Positions 22,887 through 45,842 of a DNA stretch of 64,000 bases are shown here, piece after piece; the stretch's first letter is position 1; each line of letters opens with the position of its first letter. Made by a program: the position numbers and the translations under genes. Origin of the DNA: Rikenellaceae bacterium (GTDB taxonomy: Bacteria > Bacteroidota > Bacteroidia > Bacteroidales > Rikenellaceae); NCBI GenBank assembly GCA_902362705.1, contig CABIXK010000004.1, positions 1-64,000 of the forward strand, given 5' to 3'. Below the pieces are notes generated by a model that was given only the letters and a program-made list of their open reading frames with translations, did no database searches and was not told the DNA's origin.

Positions 22887-22953
22887 GTAGCCGGCGAAGA
22901 GGCGCGAGAGTAGCGAGCAGCCGTTCGCCCGGGGGCGGCTGCGGGTCGCCGGC
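22887..22953 (+). repeat. Dispersed hairpin repeat, copy 1
   Basis: The stem GTAGCC-G-GCGAA pairs with TTCGCC...GGCTGC around an apical GCGAGCAGCC. The 3' arm carries the one-sided G-rich bulge (CGGGGGC). The copy is followed by the small palindrome CGGCTCTCCGAGCCG. Confidence 0.7.
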
Positions 22954-23028
22954 TCTCCGAGCCGAAGTAAAAAGTAATAAAGTAAAAAGTGAGAAGTAAT
23001 AAGTGGAAAGAGAGGGGCGTTTTCAGCG

Positions 23029-23097
23029 CGCAGCCAGCGGAGGAGTCTGCGAACGAAGCGAGCAGCCCTCCGCGCCGGGTGGCTGCGGGCTGCCGGC
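23029..23097 (+). repeat. Dispersed hairpin repeat, copy 2
   Basis: GCAGCC-A-GCGGAGG pairs with CCTCCGC...GGCTGC; the apex contains GCGAGCAGCC. It is followed by CGGCTCTGCGAGCCG. Compared with copy 3, the stem replaces a T-A pair with C-G. Confidence 0.75.
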
Positions 23098-23299
23098 TCT
23101 GCGAGCCGATGTTTTCGCGCACGATCTCCCTTTGCCGGCTGGGGCGATCGCGCCGCAGGCGCGAGCCGGCAAAGGGACGAAGCCGGAGACTTCGCAATGC
23201 ACAATTCATAATTCACAATGCAGAATTACGAGCGCGCATCGCTTGGGCTTGCAGTTCGCAGTCAGCGCCCGGCTAAGAGCCGGGATTCGCTTTTCAGTC

Positions 23300-23374
23300 C
23301 GTAGCCAGCGGAGGCGCTCGGGAGGCGCCGCCGACAGAGCAGCCCTCCGCCGGGGGTGGCTACGGGCTGCCGGC
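23300..23374 (+). repeat. Dispersed hairpin repeat, copy 3
   Basis: GTAGCC-A-GCGGAGG pairs with CCTCCGC-CGGGGGT-GGCTAC, apex ending in GAGCAGCC. It is followed by the palindrome GGCCTTCGGCC, identical to that after copy 7 at 35.9 kb. Confidence 0.8.
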
Positions 23375-23594
23375 CTTCGGCCGTTGCTTTGCGCCTTCCT
23401 CTGTCGTTGTCCGATGCAGCGTTAGCTGCACGGGCCGCAGCCTCCGGCAGCGGACGCCCGCATTTCGCGGCTGCTCGTTCGTCCCTCTGCAGACAGCGGC
23501 CCGAGAACGGGTGGAGCGTTGAAAAGGCAGATGTCATCTCGCCGCGGGGCCTGCCGGCTCTTCGGGAGAAGTTCTCCCGTCGTCTTTTCGGGCG

Positions 23595-23665
23595 GCAGCC
23601 TGCGGAGGTCCCGGCTCTGTCAAGAGTTGCGGGCCTCCGCCGCCCGGAGGCTGCGGCCCGCCGGC
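23595..23665 (+). repeat. Dispersed hairpin repeat, copy 4
   Basis: GCAGCC-T-GCGGAGG pairs with CCTCCGC...GGCTGC. The apex differs from copies 1-3 and holds TGTCAAGAGTTGCGGG, also found in copy 7 and, with changes, in copy 8. The same 3' palindrome as copy 1 follows. Confidence 0.75.
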
Positions 23666-23713
23666 TCTCCGAGCCGAAGACAGAGAGCCCCTCTCCTGAA
23701 ACAGGAAACACGA

Positions 23714-23739
23714 AAGCCGACCCGGCGAAGGGTCGGCTT
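23714..23739 (-). terminator. Terminator of the efflux operon
   Basis: A perfect 10-bp stem AAGCCGACCC / GGGTCGGCTT with a six-base loop lies 49 bases beyond the tolC stop. The downstream side on the minus strand is T-rich (TTTCGTGTTTCCTGTTT). Confidence 0.7.
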
Positions 23740-23788
23740 CGGTGTTTGGGCCGGCGGCAGTGAGGCGTATCGAACGCCCCTCCCCGGA

Positions 23789-25153
23789 TTACAGCCGCAG
23801 CGGCTCGCCGCGGTAGTAGTCGAGGATCTTGGCGCGGAAGACGAACTCGTACTTGGCCTGCACCAGGTCTGCCTCGGCCTTCTCGACGCGCGTCTTGGCG
23901 TCGTTGAAGTCGTAGAGGGTCGAGCGGCCCGCCTCGGCCTTCTGCTCGGCATAGGCGAAGGCCACACGCGCCGAGGCGAGCGCCGTCTCGGCCGTGCGGA
24001 ACTTGACGTAGGCGGCGTCGGCGTTGTACCACGCCTGCTCGATCTCCTTGCGCAGCGCGAGTTCGGCCTGCGTGAGGGCCAGCTGCTGGTTGCGCACGGC
24101 GATCTGCGCCGAGCGGATGTTGTTGCGCGTGGCGCGGCGGTTGAAGATGGGGATGCTCATCGACACGCCCACATACTCGCTGCTCTTGTGGCGGAACTGC
24201 GACCAGAAGCTGTCGGGATCGCCGTCGTAGATGCTCGTGCCGTAGCCGCCGCTGGCCGAGATGGTGGGGTAGAGGGCCGAGCGGGCGATGCGCACGTTGT
24301 TCTCGGAGCTCCGCAGGCGCAGCCGCTCGGCGCGCAGGTGGGGGCGCTCGTCGGCGGCTGCGGCGTAGACCTCGTCGACCGATCCGAGCCGGCGCAGCGA
24401 CTCGAGCGAGAGGCTGTCGAGCGCGGGCGCCGCGACGTCGAAGCCCGCGGCGCTCTCGCGGTTGAGCGCCTGGCTTAGGTTGAGCAGCGCGAGCTGGAGC
24501 TCGTTGCGCGACTGGGCGAGCGAAGAGAGGTCGTTGGCGGCGAGCGCCTCGCTCTCGTAGCGGGCCGACTCGGGCTGCTTGCCCGCGGCGACCAGCGCCC
24601 GGCTGCGCTCGACCTGCTGGGCGCTCAGCTCGGCCTGCCGCTCGGCCACGCCGACCAGCTCGCGCGTGAAGAGCACTTGCAGATAGAGCGTCATGACGCG
24701 CACCGACACATCCTCGCGGGCGCGCCGGAGGTCCTGCACGGCGGCCTCCAGGTCGAGCTTGCTGCCCTCGATCTCGCGGTTGATGCGCATGCCCTGGAAT
24801 ATGGGCAGGCTGCCCGAGACGCCGAACGAGCCGCTGGTCTGGTTGTTGTCGCGGTAGGTGTTGTCGCTCGACAGCGCACGGCCGAACGAGGCGTTGCCGC
24901 TGATCGAGGCGTTGACGCTCGGCAGGCGGCTCCAGCGGGCGGTCGAGAGCTCGACGTCGCGCTGCTCGACCTGCAGGCTGCGCTGCCGCACGTCGATGTT
25001 GTTCTGCAGGGCGTAGGCGATGCAGTCGTCGAGCGTCCAGGGGGCGCCGGCGGCCGGTTCGCGGAGCGGCGCCGGCGTGTCGATGCCTACCACCGTCTGG
25101 GCGCGGAGCCCCCACGCGGCGCACAGCGCCAGGAGAAGAAGGATTCGTTTCAT
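23789..25153 (-). CDS. TolC-family outer-membrane efflux protein
   Basis: Outer-membrane channel of 454 residues that completes a tripartite exporter. It has a signal peptide (MKRILLLLALCAAWGLRA) and two OEP repeats: WTLDDCIAYALQNNIDVRQR at about residue 39 and the helical-hairpin pattern again from about 255 (ERLRLRSSENNVRIARSALY). The strand sections GGYGTSIYDGD and PIFNRRATRNNIRSAQIAV are also typical. It is the last gene of a five-gene minus-strand operon, after the membrane-fusion protein (6-base gap), and a strong hairpin terminator follows. The substrate cannot be told from the sequence. Confidence 0.94.
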   Translation of the reverse strand: MKRILLLLALCAAWGLRAQTVVGIDTPAPLREPAAGAPWTLDDCIAYALQNNIDVRQRSLQVEQRDVELSTARWSRLPSVNASISGNASFGRALSSDNTYRDNNQTSGSFGVSGSLPIFQGMRINREIEGSKLDLEAAVQDLRRAREDVSVRVMTLYLQVLFTRELVGVAERQAELSAQQVERSRALVAAGKQPESARYESEALAANDLSSLAQSRNELQLALLNLSQALNRESAAGFDVAAPALDSLSLESLRRLGSVDEVYAAAADERPHLRAERLRLRSSENNVRIARSALYPTISASGGYGTSIYDGDPDSFWSQFRHKSSEYVGVSMSIPIFNRRATRNNIRSAQIAVRNQQLALTQAELALRKEIEQAWYNADAAYVKFRTAETALASARVAFAYAEQKAEAGRSTLYDFNDAKTRVEKAEADLVQAKYEFVFRAKILDYYRGEPLRL

Positions 25154-25159
25154 GGCTCT

Positions 25160-26266
25160 TTATTTTTTCTCGATGCGGGCGCCGCGGACCTTATCCTCGG
25201 CCGTCACCCCTTCGGTGATCTCGATGTTGATGCCGTCCGAGAGGCCGATCTTCACCTCGCGGCGCTCGAAGGTCTGCTCCTCGTCGCCCTCGGGGCTGGT
25301 GAGCAGCTGCACGTAGCTCTTGTCGCCCTCGAACTCCACGCACCCCTCCGGGAGGGTCAGCACACCCTCGCGGCTCTCGATCACCACCGAGGCGTTGGCG
25401 CTGTAGCCGGCGCGGACGAAGACGTCGTCGGGGATTTTCACGGCGGCCTTCACCTCGAAGAGGATGATGCCGCTCTCCTCGGTCGCCTTGGGCGATACGT
25501 ACTCGAGCTCGGCGTCGAGCGAGACGTTCTGCAGGGCGCCGATGGTCAGCTTGACGGGCATCCCCTCGCGGAGCTTGCCCACGTCCGTCTCGTCGATGTT
25601 GCCCTGGAAGAGCATGTTGGACATGTCGGCGACCGTGGCGATCGTCGTGCCGTCGTTGAAGGTGTTGGACTGGATCACCGAGTTGCCGACCTTGATGGGC
25701 ACGTCGAGGATCATGCCCGTGATCGTCGAGCGGATCTGGGTGTTGCTCAGCTCCTTGTAGCGGCTCGAAATGCCGTTCTTGACGATCTCGAAGCTCTCCT
25801 TGGCGTTGGCCAGCTCCTCCTCGGCCTTGCGCAGCGACGTGCGCGCCTGCTCGAACTCCTCGTCCGAGACCACGCCCTGGCCGTGGAGCCGCTCCGTGCG
25901 CTCGAAGTCGCTGCGCAGCTGCGAGAGCGAGAGCTCGGCCACCGTCACGCGCGACTCGGCGCTCGAGAGCTGACCCATCTCCGGGACGACCTTCACCGTG
26001 GCGAGCACCTCGCCCTGGCGGACGATCTGTCCCGCCTCCTTGTAGACGGCCGAGATGATGCCCGAGATCTGGGGCTTGATGAGCACCTCGTCGCGGGGCT
26101 GCACCTTGCCCGTGGCCACCACGTACTGGCGCAGGGTGTCGGTTTTGGGCTGTACGATCGAGTAGACCACCTTGACCGGCTGGGTTTTCCGCCACAGGAA
26201 CCAGAAGGTCATGAGAAGCAGCGCTGCGAAGAGCACTCCCAGGAAGATTTTCAGAAATTTTTTCAT
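25160..26266 (-). CDS. MacA-like periplasmic adaptor (HlyD/RND membrane-fusion family)
   Basis: Adaptor of 368 residues linking the inner-membrane ABC exporter to TolC. It has one N-terminal membrane anchor (IFLGVLFAALLLMTFWFLW), a barrel-sandwich half-motif (VLIKPQISGIISAVYKEAGQ, about residue 62), and an alpha hairpin of about 70 residues (LSQLRSDFERTERLHGQGVV). The second lipoyl half follows (ITGMILDVPIKVGNSVIQSN), then beta-barrel and membrane-proximal domains ending ITEGVTAEDKVRGARIEKK. The order with the ATPase, two permeases and TolC indicates a MacAB-type exporter of peptides, lipids or macrolide-like compounds. Confidence 0.93.
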   Translation of the reverse strand: MKKFLKIFLGVLFAALLLMTFWFLWRKTQPVKVVYSIVQPKTDTLRQYVVATGKVQPRDEVLIKPQISGIISAVYKEAGQIVRQGEVLATVKVVPEMGQLSSAESRVTVAELSLSQLRSDFERTERLHGQGVVSDEEFEQARTSLRKAEEELANAKESFEIVKNGISSRYKELSNTQIRSTITGMILDVPIKVGNSVIQSNTFNDGTTIATVADMSNMLFQGNIDETDVGKLREGMPVKLTIGALQNVSLDAELEYVSPKATEESGIILFEVKAAVKIPDDVFVRAGYSANASVVIESREGVLTLPEGCVEFEGDKSYVQLLTSPEGDEEQTFERREVKIGLSDGINIEITEGVTAEDKVRGARIEKK

Positions 26267-26334
26267 ATCCGTTCGGTAATTATAATTCTCAATTCATCAT
26301 TCACAATCGAGGACCCCCTCTCCTCACGCAGGGA

Positions 26335-27594
26335 TCACTCCTCGCGGATGGCGTCGACGGCCTTGATGCTCAGTGCGCGCATGGCCGGGATGACGCCCGC
26401 CAGCAGGCTGCCCGTCACCAGGATCGCGAGGGCCAGGATGCCCATGCCGAAGGAGATCTGCCACGACACCTCGACCCCCTCCTGCGCCACGGTCACCGCC
26501 TGGTAGTAGATCGAGTCGGCCACCGACAGCACCCCCACGGCGGCCGTGAGGCCCAGCACGCCGGCGATGAAGGTGAGCACGAAGCTCTCGGAGAGGATCT
26601 GCGAGATGATGACCGTGGGCTTGGCGCCCAGGGCGCGGCGGATGCCGATCTCCTGCGTGCGCTCCTTGACCAGCACCAGCATGATGTTGCTCACGCCCAC
26701 GATGCCCGCCAGCAGCGTGCCCAGCCCCACGACCCACGTGAGGAAAGCGATGCCGAAGAAGAGCCCGTGCACCTTCTCGAACATCTCGGCCGTGGCCATG
26801 CACCACATGGCCTTCTCGTCGTCGGGCGCGATCAGGTGGCGGGCGTAGACCGTCTCGCGGCACGCCTGCTCGACCTGCTTGCTGGGCGTGCGCTCGTCGC
26901 CCGCCACGGCCAGCATGTGTATCTGGTTGCCGCGGCCGTACATCTGCTGCGCCAGCGTCACGGGCACGAAGGCCGTGCGCTCGATGTCGCTGAAGGTCAT
27001 CGCCTCGCTCTGCTTGCGGAGGACGCCCACGACGGTGAAGTAACTGTTGTTGAGCTTGATGATCTTGCCCGAGGGGTCCTGCCCTCCGGGGAAGAGGTCC
27101 TTCCAGATCTGGGTGCCGATGACGCACACCTTGCGCTTCTGCACCATGTCGACCTCGTTGATGAAGCGGCCGTAGAGCATCTTCTGGGGGTTGATCTTCT
27201 GGTAGTCGGGCGAGTAGCCCATGAGCGAGTAGTCGCCCTTGCGCTCCTCGTAGCTGCCGTGGATCTCGCCGCCCCAGTAGACGGCCGAGGCGTAGAGCAC
27301 CTCGGGCAGCTTCTTGACCGCCTCCACGTCGTCGTTGTCCATGCGCCAGTAGCGGTTCTTGGGCATGCCCTTGTAGGGGATGCCGGTCTGGGAGGGCTGC
27401 AGCAGCAGCGTGTTGGTCGAGAGGTCGCCCAGCTGGGCGCGGAACAGACGTCCCAGGCCCGTGCCGGCGCCCAGCATCACGATGAGCATGAAGATGCCCC
27501 AGAAGACGCCCAGCGCCGTCATGATGCTGCGCTTGCGGTTGCGGGAGATCGTTTGCCAGATCTCGTTCCAGCGGTCTATGTCGAAAAATCGCAT
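26335..27594 (-). CDS. MacB-like ABC transporter permease (second of two)
   Basis: Permease of 419 residues with the MacB/FtsX plan: TM1 near residues 22-45 (RKRSIMTALGVFWGIFMLIV), a large periplasmic MacB_PCD domain (about 50-270) with the family's YSLMGYSPDYQ and KVCVIGTQIWKDLFP, and three C-terminal helices with the FtsX core (ERTQEIGIRRALGAKPTVII). It lacks its own ATPase domain. The ATPase is the separate first gene of the operon. With the paralogous permease 10 bases upstream it should form a heterodimeric mechanotransmission exporter. Confidence 0.93.
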   Translation of the reverse strand: MRFFDIDRWNEIWQTISRNRKRSIMTALGVFWGIFMLIVMLGAGTGLGRLFRAQLGDLSTNTLLLQPSQTGIPYKGMPKNRYWRMDNDDVEAVKKLPEVLYASAVYWGGEIHGSYEERKGDYSLMGYSPDYQKINPQKMLYGRFINEVDMVQKRKVCVIGTQIWKDLFPGGQDPSGKIIKLNNSYFTVVGVLRKQSEAMTFSDIERTAFVPVTLAQQMYGRGNQIHMLAVAGDERTPSKQVEQACRETVYARHLIAPDDEKAMWCMATAEMFEKVHGLFFGIAFLTWVVGLGTLLAGIVGVSNIMLVLVKERTQEIGIRRALGAKPTVIISQILSESFVLTFIAGVLGLTAAVGVLSVADSIYYQAVTVAQEGVEVSWQISFGMGILALAILVTGSLLAGVIPAMRALSIKAVDAIREE

Positions 27595-27604
27595 CGTCGG
27601 TCTC

Positions 27605-28858
27605 TTATTTGTTGTATCGCAGCGCGTCTATCGTTTTGAGCTGGGCGGCGCGGTAGGCCGGCACGTAGCCGGCGATGAGCCCCGCGACGACGAGCACCAG
27701 CGTGGCGCTCACGGCCACGCCCAGGTCGAGCGTCGGGTCGAGGAATACGGTGCCCATGCCGCGGCCCGAGGGGGTCGCCTGCCCCACGACGAGCCCCACG
27801 AGCTCCATGACGGCCACGCCGAGCACCATGCCGATGTAGCCGAAGGCGGCGGTGATGAGGACCGACTCGGTGAGGATCAGCCGGATGATCGACGCCGGCT
27901 TGGCCCCCAGCGCCTTGCGTATGCCGAACTCGGCCGTGCGCTCCGAGACGGTCACCAGCATGATGTTGCTCACGCCCACGACGCCCGCCAGCAGCGTGCC
28001 CAGGCCGATGATCCAGATGAAGGCGTTGATGCCCGCGAAGACCATCGAGAAGCTCTTGTAGCGCTCCATGTTGTTGTCGATCCATATGGCGCTCCGGTCC
28101 TCGGGGTCGAAGTAGTGCTCGGCCGAGAGGCGGCGCAGCAGCCGCTTCTCGAAATCCTCCAGCGCCTGGTCGGTCTCGAGGCCCTGCACCGTGATGATGG
28201 CGTTGTCGACCACGGGGTCGTTGGCCGCGTAGAGCAGCTGGCCCGTGGTCAGCGGGATGTAGCACGACGAGCTGTTGCGCTGCGCGTCGCCCTCCATGAC
28301 GCCGATGATGCGGAAGACCGAGCTGCCCACCTTGACCTCCTTGCCCAGCGGGTCGCCCCCCTTGAAGAGGATGCGGCGCATGGGCTCGTCGATGACGATC
28401 ACCTTGCGGTATTCGGCCACGTCGGTGTCGTTGATGAAGCGCCCCGAGGAGAGCTTGCGCCCCTCGATGCGGGCGATCTTGGGCAGCGCGCCGCGCATCC
28501 ACACCGAGGTGAACTCCTTGCCGTAGGTGGCCTTCTGGCCGCTGAACCACGAGTTGGCCGCCACCTCCTCCACCTCGGGAAATTCGCGCGCAATGATCTC
28601 CAGGTCGCTGTTGCGCATGCGGATGTGGCGCCCCTTCTGGTAGCCCTTGTAGGGCTTGGAGGTCCAGCCGCCGTAGAGGTCGATCGAGTTGACGGCGTAG
28701 TCGCCGAAGTTCGACTCCACGCCGTGCTTCAGTCCGTTGCCTGAGCCGAGCAGGATGGCCAGCATGAAGATACCCCACGCTACCGAGAAGCCCGTGAGGC
28801 AGGTGCGCAGCTTGTTGCGCCGCACCGAGGTCCAGATTTCCAGCAGCAGCTCCCTCAT
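27605..28858 (-). CDS. MacB-like ABC transporter permease (first of two)
   Basis: Permease of 417 residues, paralogous to the next gene: TM1 (RTCLTGFSVAWGIFMLAILL), a periplasmic MacB_PCD domain with VEEVAANSWFSGQ and YRKVIVIDEPMRRILFKGGD, then FtsX helices with ERTAEFGIRKALGAKPASII and VAGLIAGYVPAYRAAQ. The ATG at 28858 overlaps the stop of the ATPase gene by four bases (ATGA), so translation is coupled. A longer upstream frame reads through the ATPase gene and is rejected. It works with the ATPase, the other permease, the adaptor and TolC. Confidence 0.93.
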   Translation of the reverse strand: MRELLLEIWTSVRRNKLRTCLTGFSVAWGIFMLAILLGSGNGLKHGVESNFGDYAVNSIDLYGGWTSKPYKGYQKGRHIRMRNSDLEIIAREFPEVEEVAANSWFSGQKATYGKEFTSVWMRGALPKIARIEGRKLSSGRFINDTDVAEYRKVIVIDEPMRRILFKGGDPLGKEVKVGSSVFRIIGVMEGDAQRNSSSCYIPLTTGQLLYAANDPVVDNAIITVQGLETDQALEDFEKRLLRRLSAEHYFDPEDRSAIWIDNNMERYKSFSMVFAGINAFIWIIGLGTLLAGVVGVSNIMLVTVSERTAEFGIRKALGAKPASIIRLILTESVLITAAFGYIGMVLGVAVMELVGLVVGQATPSGRGMGTVFLDPTLDLGVAVSATLVLVVAGLIAGYVPAYRAAQLKTIDALRYNK

Positions 28859-29544
28859 CGCCGTCCCAGTCCCGTTTCTTCGATGGTGGCGATCAGGCCG
28901 TCCTTCAGACGGATGATCTTGTCGGTCTGGTCGGCGATCGACTGCTCGTGCGTGACGCAGATGATCGTCATGCCCATGTCGACGTTGACGCTCCGCAGCA
29001 GGTTCATCACCTCCTGCGAGGTGGCGCTGTCGAGGGCGCCCGTGGGCTCGTCGGCCAGGATGATGCGGGGCTTGTTTATAAGTGCGCGGGCGATGGCCAC
29101 GCGCTGCTTCTGGCCGCCCGACATCTCGTTGGGCATGTGGTCGGCCCACTGCTTGAGCCCCAGCATGTCGAGATATTCGAGCGCCAGGGCGTTGCGCTTG
29201 CGGCGCGACATGCCCTGGTAATAGAGCGGCAGGGCGACGTTCTCCATCGCGTTCTTGTAGTTGATGAGGTTGAACGACTGGAAGATGTAGCCGATCATGT
29301 TGTTGCGCGCGGCGGCCGCCTGCGTCTCCGAAAGGTTCTTGATGAGCCGCCCGGCGAGGTAGTAGTTGCCGCTGTCGTAGTCGTCGAGGATGCCGAGGAT
29401 GTTGAGCAGCGTCGACTTGCCCGAGCCCGAGGCGCCCATGATCGAGACCAGCTCGCCCTCCTCGACCGAGAGGTCGATGCCCTTCAGCACGTGGAGGGGC
29501 GAACCGTTGTTGTAGGTTTTGTTGATGTTCTCCAGTTTGATCAT
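28855..29544 (-). CDS. ABC transporter ATP-binding protein (MacB/LolD-type)
   Basis: ATPase of 229 residues that drives the two permeases. Motifs in order: Walker A GASGSGKSTLLNILG (about residue 36), a Q-loop in FQSFNLINYKNAMENVALPL, signature SGGQKQRVAIARAL, Walker B RIILADEPTGALDS, and the H-loop ICVTHEQSIADQTDKIIRL. The subfamily (LolD, MacB, FtsE) is the one coupled to FtsX-like permeases. It is the first gene of the efflux operon and has a well-spaced Bacteroidota promoter about 90 bases upstream. The short LxDG end lacks any regulatory extension. Confidence 0.95.
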   Translation of the reverse strand: MIKLENINKTYNNGSPLHVLKGIDLSVEEGELVSIMGASGSGKSTLLNILGILDDYDSGNYYLAGRLIKNLSETQAAAARNNMIGYIFQSFNLINYKNAMENVALPLYYQGMSRRKRNALALEYLDMLGLKQWADHMPNEMSGGQKQRVAIARALINKPRIILADEPTGALDSATSQEVMNLLRSVNVDMGMTIICVTHEQSIADQTDKIIRLKDGLIATIEETGLGRR

Positions 29545-29633
29545 CTCTCTGTATGCGATAAAGCGCTTGTATTCACGCCGTTCTGTCTTTTGCGGGCCGA
29601 TGCGGATCGTAACTTTCCGCCTGCTATCGGTGA

Positions 29634-29663
29634 CAAATATACGGATTAAATTTTGAAAAACAA
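29634..29663 (-). promoter_or_regulatory. Promoter of the MacAB-TolC-like operon
   Basis: On the minus strand TTG (29661-29663) is followed after exactly 19 bases by TATATTTG (29634-29641), the Bacteroidota -33/-7 arrangement. The predicted leader to the ATPase gene is about 80 bases. This is the best-formed promoter in the window. Confidence 0.7.
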
Positions 29664-30274
29664 CTATTTTTTATCGAAAATCAATAAAAACTTACCCCCC
29701 CCGATAATGAGCGGTTGCGATTCGTCGCGGGAGGGGCGCGATGAAGCGGCGCACGGGGTTGCGGGGCGGGATTTCGGTGCCCGGTTGCGGCGGTGTGCGG
29801 TGGGTGCGGCGTGCGATGCCATGCGGCGGTGCAGTGCGGTTCCGGGCGCGGTGCGGCGTCGCGCGGGGTTGCGGGGCAGGATTTCGGTGCCCGGTTGCGG
29901 TGTGGTGCGGGTCGGCGGTGTGCGGTGGGTGCGGCGTGCGATGCCATGCGGCGGTGCAGTGCGGTTCCGGACGCGGTGCGCCGCCGCGCGATTTCGGCAC
30001 GGGGCTGGCTCCCGGCGCCTGCCGGCGCGGCACGAGGGCCGCATGTGGCGGGAGGGCGGAGCATGGATGGTGGGGGACCGACATTTCAGGTATAACGCGC
30101 CGCGTGCGGAAATATTGCTCCAGCGGGCCGGTTTATGCGCTGTTCGGGCGCGTTGGATCGTCGGAACGGACACATGGTGGGGCGGGTGTCGGTCGGCAGG
30201 GCCTTTGCGCGGCCTCTGCGAGCGTGGGGTGGGTGCGGTCGGTGGGGCGGGCGGAGCCGAAAGGGCGGGGCGCG
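29664..30274. other. Gene-free gap with a tandem duplication
   Basis: No credible gene: the open frames are Arg/Ala/Gly/Pro-rich shadows with no domain on either strand. The stretch carries a tandem repeat and is strongly skewed, with a G-rich plus strand. The efflux promoter bounds it at one side and the end of a small minus-strand gene at the other. Confidence 0.6.
29755..29990. repeat. Tandem duplication of about 110-125 bp
   Basis: Unit 1 (29755-29864) begins GGGGTTGCGGGGCGGGATTT. Unit 2 (29865-29990) begins GGGGTTGCGGGGCAGGATTT. Both continue with GGTGCCCGGTTGCGG and, later, the same GCGTGCGATGCCATGCGGCG block. Unit 2 has about 15 extra bases after GGTTGCGG. A third, truncated beginning (GATTTCGG) follows. 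Confidence 0.8.
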
Positions 30275-30667: not shown

Positions 30668-30847
30668 CGCGGTGGGGATTGGGTGGGCCGGCGGGCGGGC
30701 GGGGCGTACTGCCGCTGCCTCCGGTCCGTTTTCCGCTCCAATATTCGTACCGTGCTGCGCGGGGCGCAGGCGGGTGCGTTTGCGGTGCCGCTGCGCCGAT
30801 GAGACCGGCGGATGGCCGCTTCGGCGCGTGGCTCCCTGCAAACGCAA

Positions 30848-30874: not shown

Positions 30875-30879
30875 TTCAG

Positions 30880-34972: not shown

Positions 34973-35446
34973 CTATTTTAGATAGTTTTCGATGTCGATC
35001 CCCTCGGGCAGGAACTCCTCGACCGACCGGCCGAAGGAGAGCACCTCGCGCACGGTCGACGACGAGATGTCGGCCACCGAGGCGGGGGTGAAGAGCATGA
35101 CGGTGGTGATCGAGGGGCAGAGACGGTGGTTCGTGGCCTCCATCGTCCGCTCGTACTCGAAGTCGGTGGTGTTGCGCACGCCCCGCAGGATGGCGCAGGC
35201 GCCGATGCGCTCGGCCAGCTCGCCCGTCAGACCCGTGTAGATCTGCGCCTCGACCCGCGGCTCGCGGGCGTAGAGGTCGTCGACGAGCCGCTTGCGCGCC
35301 TCGACCGGGAGCAGGCCCGTCTTGGCGACGTTGTTGCCGATGCCCACCACGACGCGGTCGAAGAGGTTGAGCGCCTCCTCGACCAGCGCGGCGTGGCCGC
35401 GCGTGAAGGGGTCGAACGATCCCGGAAAGAGTACGATACGTTCCAT
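34973..35446 (-). CDS. coaD: Phosphopantetheine adenylyltransferase CoaD
   Basis: CoaD makes dephospho-CoA from ATP and 4'-phosphopantetheine. The ATG at 35446 gives 157 residues, the usual length: nucleotidyltransferase motif PGSFDPFTRGHAALVE with T-x-G-H, LRGVRNTTDFEYERTMEATN in the substrate pocket, and the ISSSTVRE signature near residue 128. A longer frame extends upstream through repeat sequence and is rejected. It heads the coaD-lpxD-tlpA run. A TACATTTG -7 element ends only six bases before the ATG, so the transcript is predicted to be leaderless or nearly so. Confidence 0.96.
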   Translation of the reverse strand: MERIVLFPGSFDPFTRGHAALVEEALNLFDRVVVGIGNNVAKTGLLPVEARKRLVDDLYAREPRVEAQIYTGLTGELAERIGACAILRGVRNTTDFEYERTMEATNHRLCPSITTVMLFTPASVADISSSTVREVLSFGRSVEEFLPEGIDIENYLK

Positions 35447-35452
35447 AATCCG

Positions 35453-35460
35453 CAAATGTA
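35453..35460 (-). promoter_or_regulatory. Putative -7 element of coaD
   Basis: The minus strand has TACATTTG followed by CGGATT and then ATG. With a start site about six bases beyond the -7 element, the mRNA would begin at or next to the start codon. Confidence 0.5.
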
Positions 35461-35563
35461 GGAAAATAAATCGAATAATCGCCCATCGGGGTGGATTTTC
35501 GCATGCGGGACGGCGGGGCGCCGGCTCTGTCGGGGCAAGTGAAAAGTTGCGGCCGCAGGCCGC

Positions 35564-35640
35564 GCAGCCCGCAGCCATCCCCGGCGGAGGGCTGCTCGTC
35601 TCGCCCGAAGGCTCGGCGGCACCCTCCGCTGGCTGCGGGC
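35564..35640 (-). repeat. Dispersed hairpin repeat, copy 5 (reverse orientation)
   Basis: In its own orientation GCAGCC-A-GCGGAGGG pairs with CCCTCCGC...GGCTGC. The apex contains GAGCAGCC and, in this copy, GCCTTCGGGC. It is one of three copies in the gap between coaD and the DUF6549-like gene. Confidence 0.75.
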
Positions 35641-35698
35641 CGCAGCCTCCGGCACAGAGGGCCGCAAACGCAAATAATAAACCCCGGCTCTTAGCTGG

Positions 35699-35764
35699 GC
35701 AGCCCGTAGCCGCCCCCGGGCGAAGGGCTGCTCGCTGGCTCTCGCGCCGCTTCGCCGGCTACGG
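35699..35764 (-). repeat. Dispersed hairpin repeat, copy 6 (reverse orientation)
   Basis: In its own orientation GTAGCC-G-GCGAAG pairs with CTTCGC-CCGGGGGC-GGCTAC, with GCGAGCAGCC at the apex. It combines the T-A form of the outer stem with the A-T form of the inner stem. Confidence 0.75.
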
Positions 35765-35799
35765 TCTGAAAGCGCACGTTTTCAACTTCTCTTCGGGCG

Positions 35800-35870
35800 G
35801 CAGCCAGCGAAGGGCGCATACTCTGTCAAGAGTTGCGGGCCTTCGCCCGGGGTGGCTGCGGCCCGCCGGC
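35800..35870 (+). repeat. Dispersed hairpin repeat, copy 7
   Basis: GCAGCC-A-GCGAAGG pairs with CCTTCGC-CCGGGGT-GGCTGC. The apex has TGTCAAGAGTTGCGGG, as in copy 4. It is followed by GGCCTTCGGCC, as in copy 3. Confidence 0.8.
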
Positions 35871-35995
35871 CTTCGGCCGTCGTTTCGTCGATCCGGTTTC
35901 AGTTATTCAGGAGCCCCCTCCCGATTTTCCACGATTCGTGGAAACCGAACCGCCCCGGCGCGGCGTACCTTGCGGCGTCGAAAAACACGAATCCC

Positions 35996-36586: not shown

Positions 36587-36589
36587 GGG

Positions 36590-38361: not shown

Positions 38362-38364
38362 GCG

Positions 38365-39714: not shown

Positions 39715-39725
39715 ACGGCGGTCTG

Positions 39726-40736
39726 TTACAGAATGTTCACTTCGGTGTCGATCGCGATGCCGAACCGCTCGCCGACGGCTTGCTGCACGCGGCGGGCAAA
39801 GGCGATCACCTCGCCGCCCGTGGCGCCTCCGAGGTTGACCAGCACCAGCGCCTGCCGCTCGTGCACGCCCACGCGCCCTTCGGCGTATCCCTTCATGCCG
39901 GCGCGGTCGATCAGCCAGCCGGCGGCCAGCTTCACCTTTGAGGGGTCGGCGGCCGGGTAGCGGGGCATGTCGGGCCAGCTGTCCGACAGCGCGTCGGCCA
40001 CGGAGCGGTCGACCACGGGGTTCTTGAAGAAGCTCCCGGCGTTGCCCCGCTCGGCTGGGTCGGGGAGCTTGGCGCGGCGGATGGCCGTGATCGCCTCGCG
40101 GATGTTGCGCAGCGTGGCGCCGCCGCGCGCCGCGACCTCGCGCTCGACGTCGCCGTAGCCCAGCTTGGGCGCCGCCGTGTGCGAGAGGCGGATCTCGATG
40201 GCGGTGATGACGGCCCGCCCGCGCAGCTCGTGCTTGAAGATGCTCTCGCGGTAGCCGAAGCGGCACGCGGCCGCCTCGAGCGTCTCTTCGCGCAGCGTGT
40301 CGGTGCGGAACAGGTGCACGCGCTCGATCGCGTCCTTCGCCTCGCAGCCGTAGGCGCCGATGTTCTGCACCGGCGCGGCGCCCGCCTTGCCGGGGATCAG
40401 CGAAAGGTTCTCGATGCCCCACAGCCCGCGCGCGACGGCCCACTCGACCAGGTCGTCCCACTCGACGCCCGCGTCGACGCGTACAAGCGCCGTGCACCCG
40501 TCGTCGTCGAGCGTCTCGATGCCGCACGCCACGGGGGTGAGCAGCACGCCGTCGTAGTCGCGCGTGAAGAGGATGTTGTTACCCCCGGAGAGGACCGTCC
40601 ACCGCGCGGGGCCCCCGTCGGCGAAGAGCGACCGCAGGTCGTCGGCCGTGTCGAACTCGACGAGGCGCGCGGCGCGCTGCCGCACGCGGAAGCTGTTGCG
40701 CGGCGTGAGGTCTATGTCGGTATATTCGCGGATCAT
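39726..40736 (-). CDS. murB: UDP-N-acetylenolpyruvoylglucosamine reductase MurB
   Basis: FAD enzyme that makes UDP-MurNAc for peptidoglycan. The 336-residue protein has NSFRVRQRAARLVEFDTADD at the N-terminus, the FAD-binding WTVLSGGNNILFTRDYDGVL, and NLSLIPGKAGAAPVQNIGAY. LGYGD (Tyr loop of type I MurB) is present, then GNAGSFFKNPVV with the proton-donor Ser. The C-terminus carries FGIAIDTEVNIL with the catalytic Glu. It begins four bases before the protease stop and precedes tilS, so it is likely co-transcribed with them. Confidence 0.96.
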   Translation of the reverse strand: MIREYTDIDLTPRNSFRVRQRAARLVEFDTADDLRSLFADGGPARWTVLSGGNNILFTRDYDGVLLTPVACGIETLDDDGCTALVRVDAGVEWDDLVEWAVARGLWGIENLSLIPGKAGAAPVQNIGAYGCEAKDAIERVHLFRTDTLREETLEAAACRFGYRESIFKHELRGRAVITAIEIRLSHTAAPKLGYGDVEREVAARGGATLRNIREAITAIRRAKLPDPAERGNAGSFFKNPVVDRSVADALSDSWPDMPRYPAADPSKVKLAAGWLIDRAGMKGYAEGRVGVHERQALVLVNLGGATGGEVIAFARRVQQAVGERFGIAIDTEVNIL

Positions 40737-40740
40737 AGGG

Positions 40741-43700
40741 CTATCGCTTTTTTGCGGCGTCGATCTCTTCGAGCAGCGCCCGCACGGCCGTTTCCAGCTG
40801 CTCGTCGCGCCCCCGGATCACCTCCTCGGGCGAGTTGGCCACGCGGATGTCGGGCTCGAGCTGCGCGTTCTCGAGGTAGCTGCCGTCGTCGAGGCGGTAG
40901 CCGACGATCGGAATGCCGAAGACGAGCGTCGGGTCCTGCAGGCGCTCCCACGAGACGCTGGTCATGGTGCCCGGCACGGGCATGCCCACCAGCTTGCCCA
41001 GCCCGCGGTGCTTGTAGACCCAGGGGGTGCCGTGGGCGTTGGAGTAGTTGGCCTCGCCCGTCAGCATGATCGAGGGCTTGTTCCAGCGGCGGCTGGGCAT
41101 GTCGCACGACTCCTTGCCGCGGATGACCTGCGTGAAGTATTTGTCGCCCGAGAAGAGCACCTCGATGTCCTCGTGGAGGCGTCCGCCGCCGTTGAAGCGG
41201 GTGTCGATGACGATGCCCTCGCGGTCGTTGTACTTGCCCAGGATGTCGGAGTAGACCGAGCGGAAGCTCGGGTCGCCCATCGACTCGATGTGGACGTAGC
41301 CCAGCCGTCCGCCCGAGAGCCGGTCGACGTCGGCCGCGCGCTGCTTGACCCAGCGGCGGTAGAGCAGCTGCGACCAGGCGCCGCGCGAGAGGGGCTCGAC
41401 GACCTCCTCCCAGCGCGTGCCGTCCGCGGGGCGCAGGATCGAGACGAGCGTCTTGCGGCCCGCCTTGCCGTCGAGCAGCGGGTAGTAGTCCTCGCCGCGG
41501 CGCACGGGCACCCCGTCGATGCGCTCCACGATGTCGCCCGGGGCGATCTTCGAGGCGGCCCGGTCGAACGGACCCCGCTCGACCACCTCCTCGACGCGCA
41601 GGCCGTCGCCCGCGTGGCGCTCGTCGAAGAAGAGCCCCAGCTCGGCCGTCGAGGCGCTGCCCTTCGGCGCGGGGTGGGAGTAGCGGCCGCCCGTGTGCGA
41701 GACGTTGAGCTCGCCCAGCCACTCGCTCAGCAGCTCGGCGAAGTCGTAGTTGTCGCCGATGTGGGGCAGGAAGCGGGCGTAGTTGTCGCGCAGCGCCTCC
41801 CAGTCGACGCCGTGCATCCGCTCGTCGTAGAAGCGCCGCTTCTCCTCGCGGTAGACGCGGTGGAACATATATTCGCGCTCGGCCGCCGGGTCTATCTTCA
41901 TCTCGGCGCGCAGCGTGATGGGTGTGAGCTTGCCGCTCTTGAGCTTCGACATGCGGCCGCGCCCCAGGATGAACAGGTCGTCGTGCTTGGCGTCCCACTC
42001 GAGCGAGCCGCTGCCGCCCACCTTCTGGAGCATCTTGTGGCCGCGGTCGCGCAGGTCGAGCTCCCAGAGGTCGGGTGCTCCGCCGAATGCGGCCAGGTAG
42101 TAGAGCTTCTCGCCCTTCTTGTCGACGGTGGCGTCGGCGATGTGGGCCGACGAGGGGGTGAGGCGCACCGTGCGCTCCTCGATGCCGCGCAGCTCGACCG
42201 CCGTGGGGCCTGCTGCCGGGCGCTCGGGCTTCTTGGCGTCGCCCTCCTTCTTTTCCGTCTTCTTCTCGGCCTCCTTGTCGAGCTCGTACTGCTCCTTCGT
42301 CAGGCGGAAGCGGTCGTAGGCCTCCTGGTTGAGGAAGACGATCATCACGTCGTCGAGCGACCCCCACGAGGCGTGGTTGCGCATGCCGTAGCGCTCCGAG
42401 AGGAAGAGGATGGCCTCGCCGCCCAGCACCCAGCGGGGCGCGCGGTCGGTGTAGCCGCTGCCCGTCAGATCGACGATCCGATCGCCGCCCGCGGCGCTCA
42501 CCAGACCGATGTCGGTATAGGGCTCGTGGCGGTTGGCCGTGTGGGTGAGGGCGAACCATTTGCCGTCGGGCGACCACGAATAGTCGATCATGCCGGTGGT
42601 CGAGTAGTGGTGGCTTCCGTCGGTGATCTGCCGCACCTTGCCCGTGGAGAGGTTCTTGACCATCAGGCGGCAGCGGTCCTCGATGAAGGCCAGCTCCTTG
42701 CCGTCGGGCGAGTACCGGGGCAGGAAGCGCTCGTGGCGCGCGTCGTCGAAGAGGGGCTTCTCGTCGACGAGCGTGGCGTTGGGGAAGTTGGGCTCCTCGT
42801 CGCGCGCGATGGAGGCCGTGTAGATGTTCCAGCGGCCGTCGCGCTCCGAGGCGTAGGCCAGCGTGCGGCTGTCGGGGGCGAAGCAGAGGTCGCGCTCGGC
42901 GGCCGCCGTGCGGGTGATCTGGCGCGTCGAGGCGTAGTCGACCGACGTGACGAAGACCTCGCCGCGCGAGAGCAGCGCCACCTGTTTGCCGTCGGGCGAG
43001 ACGACGGCGCCGCTGCCCGATGCGACCGCGAGCGTCAGCTCCTCCCCGGCGGGCTCCGTTTCGGTGATCCCGACGGCCACCTTGCGCGGAGAGGCCGTGC
43101 CGCGGGCGGTGTAGATCTCGCCGTTGTAGCCGAAGCAGAGGGTGCCGTCGGCGGCCACCGTGAGGAAGCGCACGGGATGGGTTCTGAAGCGGGTCACCTG
43201 CCGCGCGGCCGCGGGGTCGTCGATCGGGAACGACCAGACGTTGAACGAGCCGTCGCGCTCGCTCAGGAAGTAGACCGTGCGGCCGTCGGGCGAGAGGCGC
43301 GGCTGGCGGTCCTCGCCGGCGAAGTCGGTGAGGCGGCTGTGGCGCCCCGTGGCGGCGTCGTAGTGCCAGATGTCGCGCGCGACGGACGAGGTGTGGTGCT
43401 TGCGCCAGACGTTCTCGCCGCCCTTGCAGTCCTGGTAGAGGAAGCTGCGGCCGTCGGCGGCGAAGGAGATCTCCTCGGCCGGGGTGGCCAGGATGCGCTC
43501 GGGGCGCCCGCCGTCGAGCCTCACGGCGTAGAGCTCGCTCATCGAGCTCTTGGGGAAGAGGGCGCTCGATGCCGGGTCGGCGATCGTGGCCGTGAAGTAG
43601 ACCCGCTTGCCGTCGGGCGAGAAGGCGCACGGAACCTCCGCGGCCGAGTGGGTCGTCAGGCGGCGCGGACGGCCCCCCTCGGCGGCGACGGCGTAGAGGT

Positions 43701-43959
43701 CGAAGTTGCCGTGGCGGTCCGACGCATAGGCGATCGTGCGCGAGTCGGGCGACCATACGGGGGCGAAGTCGTGCGATGCGCCCGAGGTGAGGCGGCGGGC
43801 CTGCCCGCCCTCGGCGTCGACCACGTAGAGGTCGCCGCGGTAGGCGAAGGCGATCTGCCGCCCGTCGGGCGAGAGGGCGGGGTAACGCATCCACAGCGGA
43901 GCTGCGCAGGCTGCGCCCGAGACGAGGAGCGCCAGCAGCGCGAGGAGGGTCTTTTTCAT
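40741..43959 (-). CDS. Tricorn-like S41 family protease
   Basis: Exported protease of 1072 residues: signal peptide MKKTLLALLALLVSGAACA, two beta-propellers of PD40/WD40-like blades (YPALSPDGRQIAFAYRGDLY and many similar repeats with xxPDGxxLAF) over about residues 20-640, a PDZ domain around 720-800, and a C-terminal S41 catalytic domain. Active-site features match Tricorn: ELNVSHTGGRYSH (Ser-His), GEANYSNAHGTP with the nucleophile Ser, and DDGSYLENAQLEPDI with the Glu. It probably digests peptides in the periplasm. The shorter ATG start at 43959 is used because it begins the signal peptide. The promoter is shared with the DUF4301 gene. Confidence 0.92.
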   Translation of the reverse strand: MKKTLLALLALLVSGAACAAPLWMRYPALSPDGRQIAFAYRGDLYVVDAEGGQARRLTSGASHDFAPVWSPDSRTIAYASDRHGNFDLYAVAAEGGRPRRLTTHSAAEVPCAFSPDGKRVYFTATIADPASSALFPKSSMSELYAVRLDGGRPERILATPAEEISFAADGRSFLYQDCKGGENVWRKHHTSSVARDIWHYDAATGRHSRLTDFAGEDRQPRLSPDGRTVYFLSERDGSFNVWSFPIDDPAAARQVTRFRTHPVRFLTVAADGTLCFGYNGEIYTARGTASPRKVAVGITETEPAGEELTLAVASGSGAVVSPDGKQVALLSRGEVFVTSVDYASTRQITRTAAAERDLCFAPDSRTLAYASERDGRWNIYTASIARDEEPNFPNATLVDEKPLFDDARHERFLPRYSPDGKELAFIEDRCRLMVKNLSTGKVRQITDGSHHYSTTGMIDYSWSPDGKWFALTHTANRHEPYTDIGLVSAAGGDRIVDLTGSGYTDRAPRWVLGGEAILFLSERYGMRNHASWGSLDDVMIVFLNQEAYDRFRLTKEQYELDKEAEKKTEKKEGDAKKPERPAAGPTAVELRGIEERTVRLTPSSAHIADATVDKKGEKLYYLAAFGGAPDLWELDLRDRGHKMLQKVGGSGSLEWDAKHDDLFILGRGRMSKLKSGKLTPITLRAEMKIDPAAEREYMFHRVYREEKRRFYDERMHGVDWEALRDNYARFLPHIGDNYDFAELLSEWLGELNVSHTGGRYSHPAPKGSASTAELGLFFDERHAGDGLRVEEVVERGPFDRAASKIAPGDIVERIDGVPVRRGEDYYPLLDGKAGRKTLVSILRPADGTRWEEVVEPLSRGAWSQLLYRRWVKQRAADVDRLSGGRLGYVHIESMGDPSFRSVYSDILGKYNDREGIVIDTRFNGGGRLHEDIEVLFSGDKYFTQVIRGKESCDMPSRRWNKPSIMLTGEANYSNAHGTPWVYKHRGLGKLVGMPVPGTMTSVSWERLQDPTLVFGIPIVGYRLDDGSYLENAQLEPDIRVANSPEEVIRGRDEQLETAVRALLEEIDAAKKR

Positions 43960-44028
43960 ATCAGCGTTCTTTGCGTTCGTGTGCGGGGCGAAAAGGGGCG
44001 ATCGCGAAAAAATCGTCCTTACGGATAG

Positions 44029-44056
44029 CAAAGTTAGGAATTATTCCGTAACTTTG
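44029..44056. promoter_or_regulatory. Palindromic divergent promoter
   Basis: CAAAGTTA and TAACTTTG form the outer arms, and GGAATTATTCC the palindromic centre. Each outer arm is a TAnnTTTG -7 element, one for the Tricorn-like gene (minus strand) and one for the DUF4301 gene (plus strand), only 12 bases apart. Confidence 0.55.
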
Positions 44057-44084
44057 AAAGAAGAAACCTAAACCCCGAAGAATT

Positions 44085-45512
44085 ATGTTTACCGAAAAGG
44101 ATTTGCAGCAGATAGCCGACCACGGACTCACTCCCGAAGCGGTCGAACGGCAGATCGCCGCTTTCCGCAGCGGATTTCCCTTCCTGAAAGTCGTGCGCGC
44201 CGCATCGCCCGCCGACGGCATCCTGACCCTCGACGACGACGCTGCCGACCGCGCCGTGGCCCGCTACGACGCCTCCGGCCGCTCGGTCGTGAAGTTCGTC
44301 CCCGCGTCGGGCGCCGCCACGCGCATGTTCAAGGAGCTCTTCGAGTTCGTCAACGAGGGCAAGCGCGGCAAGGGCATCGACACGCTGGTGGAGAACATCC
44401 GCCGCTTCGCCTTCTGGCCCGAGCTGGAGGCCCTGCTCCCCGCGGGCGCCGACGACCGCACGCTCGTCTCGGCCATCGTGAAGGAGGGGCTCGGCTACGG
44501 CAGCAAGCCCAAGGGGCTGGTGACCTTCCACGCCTATCCCGAGGGGGCCCGCAAGGCTGTCGAGGAGCACCTGGTCGAGGGGGCGCAGTACGCCGCCCAC
44601 GAGGGCACGGCGCGCATCCACTTCACCGTCTCGCCCGAGCACCGCGCGGGCTTCGAGGCGCTGCTGGCCGAGAAGATCCCCGCCTACGAGCGGCGCTTCG
44701 GCATCCGCTACGACATCACCTTCTCGGTGCAGAAGCCCTCGACCGACACGATCGCCGTCAACCCCGACAACACCCCCTTCCGCTGCGACGACGGCTCGCT
44801 GCTCTTCCGCCCGGCGGGCCACGGCGCGCTGATCGAGAACCTCGACGAGATCGATGCCGATCTGATCTTCATCAAGAACATCGACAACGTGACCACCGAC
44901 GCCCGCCGCGGCGACACGGTGCGCTGCAAGAAGGTGCTGGCCGGCCTGCTGCTCGACCTGCAGGAGCGCGCCTTCGGCTACCTGAAGGCCCTCGACGCCG
45001 GCTCGGCCGATCTGGCGGCGGTCGCCGCCTTCGTCGAACGCGAACTCTGCGTCAAGCTGCCCGCCTCCTGCGATGCCGCGCTGCTGCGCTCCGTGCTCGA
45101 CCGTCCCATCCGCCTCTGCGGCATGGTCCGCAACGAGGGCGAGCCGGGCGGCGGCCCCTTCTGGGTGGCCAACCCCGACGGTACGGAGTCGCTCCAGATC
45201 GCCGAGTCGAGCCAGATAGCGCCCGCCGACATGCCGCTGATGCGGGGCGCGACCCACTTCAACCCCGTGGATCTGGTCTGCGGCGTGCGGCGCTGGGACG
45301 GCTCCAAGTTCGATCTGCGCCGGTTCACCGACCCGGCCACGGGCTTCATATCCTCCAAGTCCTCCGGCGGCCGCGAGCTGCGCGCCCAGGAGCTGCCCGG
45401 CCTCTGGAACGGCGCCATGGCCCGCTGGAACACCGTCTTTGTCGACGTGCCCGTCTCCACCTTCTCGCCCGTGAAGGTGGTGCAGGATCTGTTGCGGCCC
45501 CAACACCAGTAA
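44085..45512 (+). CDS. DUF4301 family protein
   Basis: Cytoplasmic protein of 475 residues in a family found mostly in Bacteroidota and unknown in function. It starts MFTEKDLQQIADHGLTPEAV and contains the conserved VVKFVPASGAATRMFKELFE (about residue 68), KGLVTFHAYPEGARKAVEEH, VNPDNTPFRCDDGSLLFRPA and HGALIENLDEIDADLIFIKN. Its latter half has PFWVANPDGTESLQIAESSQ. The GAATRM region and HGALIENL blocks resemble nucleotidyl-sugar transferases in places, but no catalytic claim can be made. It is transcribed alone, divergent from the Tricorn-like gene, and followed by a repeat-rich gap. Confidence 0.9.
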   Translation: MFTEKDLQQIADHGLTPEAVERQIAAFRSGFPFLKVVRAASPADGILTLDDDAADRAVARYDASGRSVVKFVPASGAATRMFKELFEFVNEGKRGKGIDTLVENIRRFAFWPELEALLPAGADDRTLVSAIVKEGLGYGSKPKGLVTFHAYPEGARKAVEEHLVEGAQYAAHEGTARIHFTVSPEHRAGFEALLAEKIPAYERRFGIRYDITFSVQKPSTDTIAVNPDNTPFRCDDGSLLFRPAGHGALIENLDEIDADLIFIKNIDNVTTDARRGDTVRCKKVLAGLLLDLQERAFGYLKALDAGSADLAAVAAFVERELCVKLPASCDAALLRSVLDRPIRLCGMVRNEGEPGGGPFWVANPDGTESLQIAESSQIAPADMPLMRGATHFNPVDLVCGVRRWDGSKFDLRRFTDPATGFISSKSSGGRELRAQELPGLWNGAMARWNTVFVDVPVSTFSPVKVVQDLLRPQHQ

Positions 45513-45547
45513 TTCCGATTTCGGAACGTATCTTTGCACTCGCTCTT

Positions 45548-45596
45548 GCGGAGCGCGAATGGAATGTACTCCGAGTACTACCCATCCGCGCTCCGC
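45548..45596. repeat. Long palindrome A
   Basis: Arms GCGGAGCGCG and CGCGCTCCGC pair perfectly, extended by ATGG/CCAT, around a loop that holds its own small palindrome GTACTCCGAGTAC. It lies 36 bases after the DUF4301 stop. It may serve as a terminator although no T-run follows. Confidence 0.65.
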
Positions 45597-45647
45597 TGCG
45601 TTTGAGCGCAAATCTACTGTCCCGAAATCGAAATTCTTCCGGCATCT

Positions 45648-45688
45648 GCCCCGAACGGGAAATACCTCGTGTATGTCCCGTCCGGGGC
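45648..45688. repeat. Long palindrome B
   Basis: GCCCCGAACGGGA pairs with TCCCGTCCGGGGC (one mismatch), with an inner AATAC/GTATG pairing around CTCGT. It is built like palindrome A and, like it, is followed within a few bases by CTGCG. Confidence 0.65.
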
Positions 45689-45763
45689 AAGCTGCGTTAG
45701 GCCGAAACCTGCACCGCGTTGGAAGCCCCTTTCGATTTTCCATTTGCAGCCTCGGCTCACAGA

Positions 45764-45842
45764 GCCGGCGGGCCGCAGCCCCCCCCCGGCGGAGGCCTGC
45801 AATTCTTGACTGCCCCCCCCCTCCGCAAGGGAACAGGCTGCG
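45764..45842 (-). repeat. Dispersed hairpin repeat, copy 8 (reverse orientation, degenerate)
   Basis: In its own orientation GCAGCC and GCGGAGG pair with CCTCCGCC...GGCTGC, but the 5' arm holds an extra block between the two segments. The apex reads GTCAAGAATTGCAGG, close to copies 4 and 7. The G-rich bulge has expanded to nine G. Confidence 0.6.

Follow-up and report, generated by a model that had tools for sequence, protein, structure and literature searches.

Hairpin repeats in three gaps of an Alistipes contig

The window analyzed here, a stretch of 64,000 nucleotides from a Rikenellaceae bacterium (assembly GCA_902362705.1, contig CABIXK010000004.1, positions 1–64,000), carries a family of hairpin repeats in three gaps between its genes. 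The 64-kb window belongs to Alistipes: 23 of 23 loci found with one window protein have Alistipes or Rikenellaceae titles, and the closest locus (L001, in genome G001) is 89% identical over one window protein. Its G+C content is ∼67%. The copy-holding gaps are located at 22744–23788 (gap 1, five copies), 35447–35995 (gap 2, three copies), and 45513–46061 (one copy), with borders set by a codon-usage gene caller trained on the window genes, most of which have Pfam support. The original prediction, made from the letters of the window, held that no copy lies in a gene. The gaps are indeed gene-free, with two caveats. The caller's lowest-scoring open reading frame (score 8; 22727–23122, minus strand) overlaps copies 1 and 2. 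At gap 2, the left gene would extend into copy 5 if read in its longest frame (34973–35578, minus strand). In this gene the Pfam domain begins at residue 50 and the caller's start is at 35446.

Eight copies in two orientations had been reported. A first model (R1), made from these eight, served to find copies in G001; 107 G001 copies were then the sole source of a second, covariance model (R2), with which we searched the window in turn. R2 recovered all eight at the claimed positions (E = 5e-13 to 6.5e-5) together with a ninth at 23431–23503 on the minus strand (E = 3.6e-7), so that the true total is nine (Table 1). The E-values of this search tool are rough. A strict regular expression for the architecture matched six times in the window and not once in 200 first-order Markov windows.

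Table 1. Repeat copies and the expanded gap in the window (X, Y, and X' are segments of the unit described in the text; pairing is given as paired positions out of six).
Feature	Position	Strand	Long hairpin	Second hairpin	Model score	Pairing or remark
Copy 1 (degenerate)	22881–22964	+	22881–22948	22949–22964	R2 45.1 bits, E 3.2e-7	Y:X' 3/6
Copy 2	23024–23108	+	23024–23092	23093–23108	R2 68.8 bits	Y:X' 6/6, X:X' 5/6
Copy 3	23295–23383	+	23295–23369	23370–23383	R2 72.7 bits, E 5.3e-13	Y:X' 6/6, X:X' 5/6
Copy 9 (absent from the original prediction)	23415–23503	-	23431–23503	23415–23430	R1 47.8 bits; R2 44.9 bits, E 3.6e-7	X:X' 6/6, Y:X' 5/6
Copy 4 (T-A subtype)	23589–23676	+	23589–23660	23661–23676	R2 58.3 bits	Y:X' 6/6, X:X' 5/6
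Copy 5	35549–35642	-	35565–35642	35549–35564	R2 70.7 bits	Y:X' 6/6, X:X' 5/6
Copy 6	35683–35768	-	35700–35768	35683–35699 (imperfect)	R2 57.6 bits	Y:X' 6/6, X:X' 5/6
Copy 7	35794–35879	+	35794–35865	35866–35879	R2 69.7 bits	Y:X' 6/6, X:X' 5/6
Copy 8 (degenerate)	45753–45842	-	45769–45842	45753–45768	R2 34.1 bits, E 6.5e-5 over 45776–45840; R1 62.3 bits	Y:X' 5/6, X:X' 3/6
Gap 1, expanded intergenic region	22744–23788					five copies; 43–534 bp in 17 orthologous loci

Unit architecture and a third strand

The family is well structured and polar. Each unit reads, 5' to 3', X-A-s-B-(arm, loop)-Y-B'-bulge-s'-A'-X', and is followed by a second small hairpin. X is CRGNCC or CGGGNC, A is GYAGCC, s is a single base, and B is GCGRAGG. 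After B comes a variable arm with a loop that, by eye, often resembles AGCGANAGCGA. Y is CAGCCC, CGGCCC, or CGGGCC and shares its last two bases with the start of B' (CCTYCGC); a one-sided G/C bulge, s', A' (GGCTRC), and X' (GGGCTG, GGGCCG, or GGCCCG) complete the unit. The original observation is confirmed, with three details of the architecture amended. In 97 of 106 G001 copies its "one-base 5' spacer" is in fact paired, the partner being the final base of its "3' bulge" (A-T 33, T-A 28, G-T 20, G-C 16); s therefore pairs with s', the stem is continuous, and the bulge is purely 3'. The outer stem continues for about six further, imperfect pairs, and the second small hairpin had been left out of the unit.

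The long hairpin measures 64–81 nt, the second hairpin being additional. A second hairpin of at least six pairs begins no more than 4 nt after X' in 78 of 104 G001 copies, compared with 4/104 at the mirror position upstream and 10/321 in shuffled flanks; its loop is 3–4 nt long in 66 of the 78. T is mildly enriched (35–40%) 3–6 nt after the second hairpin, and nine of 78 tails have five or more T among their first eight bases. Upstream of X, the preceding base is T in 52% and no other conserved tag was seen; GTAG or GCAG sits within the paired stem and is not an unpaired tag. Of the G001 neighbors separated by under 250 bp (22 pairs), 18 pairs stand head to tail and four are inverted. At L032:1600–1725 (contig C3 of G001), the 3' half of a unit and its second hairpin are tandemly duplicated.

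Covariation was assessed on the G001 copies. Standard pairs fill 93.6% of 2122 alignment cells, a percentage that leans towards structure because the model itself guided the alignment. The presence of matches was also part of the reason for choosing the G001 stretches. Ten pairs show two-sided changes, in 132 cells. When the partners were slid, at most 55.6% of cells paired and 18 were two-sided, which rules out an alignment held together by GC-rich composition alone. In 500 shuffles the observed number of paired cells, the numbers of two-sided pairs and of two-sided cells, and the covariation score were never attained; the count of pair types was, in 8/500. The eight reported window copies alone give thinner support: 91.4% of cells are paired and nine are two-sided (0/500 shuffles as high), and the four pairs with two-sided change were equalled by 199/500 shuffles. 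One might suppose that the repeats are chance products of G+C-rich intergenic DNA that folds, given the base composition of the window and the fact that single-sequence DNA folds of three of the eight copies are not clearly better than those of shuffles (z = -0.87, -1.62, and -0.81). Recovery by an independent model, the slid and shuffled controls, and the empty Markov windows refute this, and we regard its probability as negligible.

Both X and Y can pair with X'. In G001, full 6/6 pairing with X' is found for Y in 72 of 100 copies and for X in nine of 100 (seven of the 107 rows were dropped from this count, and eight from the count by position, for gaps in the segments). In copies whose X and Y carry different letters at a given position, X' is complementary to Y more often than to X at position 4 (43 vs. 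4), position 5 (26 vs. 2), and position 2 (20 vs. 8). Y:X' cells are 94.3% paired with 61 two-sided cells (0/500 shuffles), as against no more than 57.8% and three cells in slid controls; X:X' is 87.5% paired with 48 two-sided cells. Four of the six Y positions fall outside the paired regions of the model. The window repeats the pattern: complete Y:X' pairing accompanies 5/6 pairing of X:X' in six of nine copies, the two degenerate copies (22881 and 45769) have neither, and copy 9 is reversed. In 18 copies from nine other genomes, collected by regular expression, Y:X' is complete in 11 and X:X' in one; the Y:X' sum of this set is 85 (shuffle mean 73.5, maximum 87), and the set retains at least three misread copies (L066 lies in a gene; L131 and L132 are in the wrong register). 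X and Y thus compete for X', giving two mutually exclusive folds: the unit is predicted to close either as the long hairpin through X:X' or as an alternative fold through Y:X'. A 5' mini-hairpin between the X end and B was tried as an explanation of the mismatches in X and rejected, X4-B5 pairing in only 29 of 99 copies.

Genomic context, distribution, and candidate mobilizers

Although 84% of the G001 sequence is coding, only two of 107 copies overlap a called coding sequence (CDS) by more than 20 bases. An earlier gene caller had picked antisense frames (21/107 overlaps) and was replaced by the caller trained on window genes. Convergent gaps make up 29 of 73 copy-holding gaps, vs. 73 of the 317 gaps that exceed 100 bp. 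Between genes of the same direction, 21 copies lie along the genes and 19 against, which shows no preferred strand with respect to transcription; among the 105 non-overlapping copies, 15 had no called gene on one side and were left unclassified. Orientation agrees with GC skew in 41 of 104 copies when scored by 20-kb chunk, the other strand being slightly in excess, and in 49 of 107 by contig. No clear replication-strand bias of the kind expected of single-strand transposition was seen.

These data bear on the structured-RNA nature that the original prediction also allowed, namely an amplified regulatory or processed RNA family in which the two folds would be an RNA switch and the second hairpin its 3' end. 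Strong covariation with G-U pairs, the two exclusive folds, the polar second hairpin with its short loop, and the mild T enrichment after it all speak for such an RNA. However, the copies show no orientation preference relative to neighboring genes, T-rich tails are few, one genome holds more than 100 copies whereas most of the genus sample described below has no match, and no Rfam match was found. At gathering score Rfam reported only a tRNA in the window; gap 1 gave sub-threshold chance matches, and seven loci gave none. We consider an RNA family unlikely.

We compared gap 1 with its orthologues. In 17 of 23 loci with both flanks aligned it measures 43–534 bp, whereas the window, measured likewise, has 997–1085 bp, and R1 finds nothing in the 23 loci except one match at E = 0.62. 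The shorter gap in the 17 loci supports a gain in the lineage of the window and does not give the exact insertion point. One G001 locus was searched for an exact empty site in 120 relatives, among which no species was close enough. Three other features were seen in gap 1. A separate hairpin at 23127–23177 (19-nt arms, 89% complementary) is by eye unrelated to the repeat family; A-rich short direct repeats of the AAGTAAAAAGTAATAA type lie at 22965–23009, between copies 1 and 2; and a terminator-like hairpin at 23706–23747 ends an efflux operon, and L001 has at the same place a hairpin that is similar in form but differs in sequence.

A miniature inverted-repeat transposable element (MITE) derived from a DDE insertion sequence would explain the inverted ends X and X', the many copies, and their intergenic sites. 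Against it, no target duplication was found when direct repeats of 4–9 nt were sought at the two edges of the unit, taken as the base preceding X and the last base of the second hairpin, edges that are themselves only approximate; and the second hairpin sits beyond the inverted repeat, on one side only. As to an autonomous DDE element sharing these ends, no gene pair more than 85% identical was found among the 809 called genes in 1.1 Mb (about half) of the draft G001. A MITE is highly improbable.

In the 13 genomes behind the loci (drafts among them) at most 150 candidates were scored per genome, with matches taken at E ≤ 0.1. The covariance search for copies beyond the window, as proposed in the original prediction, was positive: there are at least 142 matches in G001, where 150 candidates were scored, 82 in G008, 31 in G007, 29 in G012, and 23 in G003, fewer in G006 and G010 (at least four each) and G011 (at least two), and none in the other five of the 13. 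Two broader samples were searched, a genus sample of 151 genomes (32 candidates scored each, E ≤ 0.001) and an order sample (16 each, E ≤ 1e-4); kinship within them is not stated, and all match counts are lower bounds. The unit was present in at least 17 of 151 genus-sample genomes and was not found at these settings in 294 other order-sample genomes. Several genomes each carry their own versions of it. An exact 22-mer gave no match in viral contigs, and window positions 23285–23690 gave none in plasmids and phages. Matches in several genomes, the avoidance of genes, and the comparison of gap 1 bear out the picture of dispersed, intergenic, and patchily distributed hairpins like repetitive extragenic palindromic (REP) sequences.

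A mobilizing enzyme was sought with the Y1 transposase profile PF01797 (Y1_Tnp), which covers RAYT and IS200. It was not found in the 13 genomes, and among the 151 genus-sample genomes there were two hits, one a 25-residue fragment and the other in G088; the same search was positive in 102 of 149 order-sample genomes and in E. coli. Since many of the genomes are drafts, a single missing gene means little; the near absence across the genus means more. This is consistent with the earlier remark that the window has no RAYT gene. The search suggested there for a RAYT/Tnp gene flanked by the same hairpin yielded none in the 13 genomes. A Y1 transposase does not fit as the partner. IS110 was set aside as well (two of 10 carrier genomes, G008 and G007, and none of 16 others, G001 not among them), as was TnpB, whose C-terminal domain had no match over the cut-off in 26 genomes and three weak matches.

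A rival reading is a classic REP family that lost its RAYT. Its copies would now be fossils, retained because they serve the host at mRNA ends or in the binding of gyrase or nucleoid proteins. The over-representation of convergent gaps, the commonness of Y1 transposases in the order sample, and REP families described, in the part of the source covered, as apparently lacking a dedicated transposase (PMC3733652) point that way. On the other side, Y1_Tnp is present in just two of 151 genus genomes though several genomes hold their own versions of the unit, no conserved tag except the T preference lies upstream of X, and the units are 64–81 nt long with a second hairpin. A lost RAYT is a minor but realistic possibility.

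Spread through an RNA copy by the reverse transcriptase of a resident retroelement was weighed in the same way. RVT_1 is present in seven of 10 carrier genomes vs. four of 16 genomes without matches; it was not found in the carriers G001 (the richest), G061, and G146, all drafts. Nor is there an excess of 5'-truncated copies of the kind a reverse-transcription truncation bias would leave, the counts being nine solo 3' halves and 23 solo 5' halves, a number of the 5' halves probably arising by chance. A looser half-copy scan gave 324 solo 3' matches, mostly chance, and was discarded. A retroelement is very unlikely to be responsible.

Some further observations concern other parts of the data. 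The first 8 kb of the window (1–8000) has a G+C content of 39–56%, vs. 63–72% elsewhere, and is possibly foreign. An ARAGORN tRNA-Ala call at 11898–11983, opposite a called CDS (11704–12570, minus strand) and unsupported by Rfam at its gathering score, is probably false. A second dispersed repeat of ∼180 nt (GAGCCGGAGTATCTTCGGCGAAG...) occurs at L041:14310–14492 (contig C3 of G001), with ∼75–88% matches within the same and other genomes, including G178 and G181 of the order sample, and no Rfam match.

Interpretation and relation to known repeat families

We think it probable, if by a limited degree, that these repeats are a REP-like, RAYT-less, non-coding, and non-autonomous hairpin family that has expanded between the genes of some Alistipes lineages. 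Its mobility is something we infer. Because the fold is kept while the letters change, the copies would have spread by a copying or transposition process that recognizes the folded single strand, and selection would remove those landing in genes. The mobilizer would not be a recognizable RAYT/IS200 Y1 transposase in the genomes searched; it may be another enzyme, or a RAYT since lost, and in this last branch the proposal overlaps with the fossil REP family discussed above. Fold switching may matter to whatever handles the element. Of the nature suggested in the original prediction (mobile, REP/MITE-like, or structured RNA), the REP-like part is kept. The MITE part is not supported, no target duplication having been found and the second hairpin being one-sided, and structured RNA is unlikely given the absence of strand preference and of Rfam matches.

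Several results weigh against the RAYT-less REP-like family or its competing strands. G088, one of the two Y1-positive genus genomes, also has one R1 match, and RVT_1 is the more frequent in carriers. The closest non-neighboring copies in 1.1 Mb of G001 are ∼90–93% identical, so the spread may be old. No exact empty site or movement was observed, the nearest relative being only 83–86% identical around gap 1. Replication strand and target sites yielded nothing positive for a particular chemistry, and paralogues are not enriched beside copies (13% of 144 adjacent genes vs. 12% of 809). As to the third strand, X' shows no preference for Y at positions 1, 3, and 6 (Y:X counts 6:6, 3:7, and 2:2), and the three Y:X' pairs with two-sided change were reached by 91 of 500 shuffles. 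Predicted DNA energies favor the long hairpin over the Y:X' fold by a mean of ∼9 kcal/mol, the two lying within 3 kcal/mol in four of 74 copies. A few subfamilies of shared descent may account for part of the Y:X' covariation; the difference between X and Y in their fit to one and the same X' does not depend solely on common ancestry.

A bolder reading, which we hold to be doubtful, is that the three strands form a switch and that the repeats, whether mobile or otherwise functional, make up a hairpin element of a new class. X' would be matched exactly by Y while X usually stays one or two letters short, the unit would toggle between the long hairpin and a row of small hairpins, and this toggle would be read by an undescribed non-Y1 mobilizing enzyme.

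PATE-like elements are two-hairpin derivatives of IS200/IS605. They share with the Alistipes unit the presence of two unlike hairpins in one polar unit; the Alistipes repeats differ in that no IS200/IS605 TnpA was found in the 13 genomes and no TnpB domain over the cut-off in 26.

Comparison with published REP systems was limited to the parts of the cited sources covered. REPs are explained by RAYT/TnpA-REP proteins (PMC8266576). The REP/REPtron systems of E. coli and Pseudomonas (PMC2817692, PMC8266576) share with the present family many intergenic hairpins, a bulged imperfect palindrome, arrays, and a conserved single-strand fold. The Alistipes unit is longer (64–81 vs. 20–40 nt), has two hairpins per unit and the competing inner strand Y, and lacks both a Y1 transposase in the 13 genomes and a visible unpaired GTAG tag. 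Since no associated RAYT was found, we do not file it as a RAYT-associated REP; in its workings it resembles a REP family. CGTC-type REP families, apparently without a dedicated transposase, are reported from five phyla including Bacteroidetes (PMC3733652); they too are REP-like hairpins with no known mobilizing enzyme, but they end in CGTC with a short unpaired tail, neither of which was seen at the ends of the Alistipes unit, where no dedicated tag scan was made. "Atypical secondary structures" flank the TnpA-REP proteins of subclass 2.6 in Bacteroidetes (PMC6006769), a subclass that shares the phylum and atypical hairpins copied elsewhere in the genome; it is defined by a Y1 gene, which was not found in 149 of 151 Alistipes genus-sample genomes. 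In the part of the RepRanger paper covered (PMC12306157), the three Bacteroidota species listed include no Alistipes and the genus is not named in the text. We recognized no published description of the repeat family in the REP and MITE literature on Alistipes, subscription papers not being covered. Two points are new, namely the three-strand arrangement and the near absence of the usual enzyme across the genus sample.

RAYT transposases are the usual explanation for repeats of the REP-like kind, yet this high-copy family occurs in a common gut genus in which Y1 was almost never found. What else can spread hairpin repeats becomes a question that can be tested by strain comparison, and the X/Y/X' arrangement makes a definite prediction about the structure met by any enzyme or process that handles the unit.

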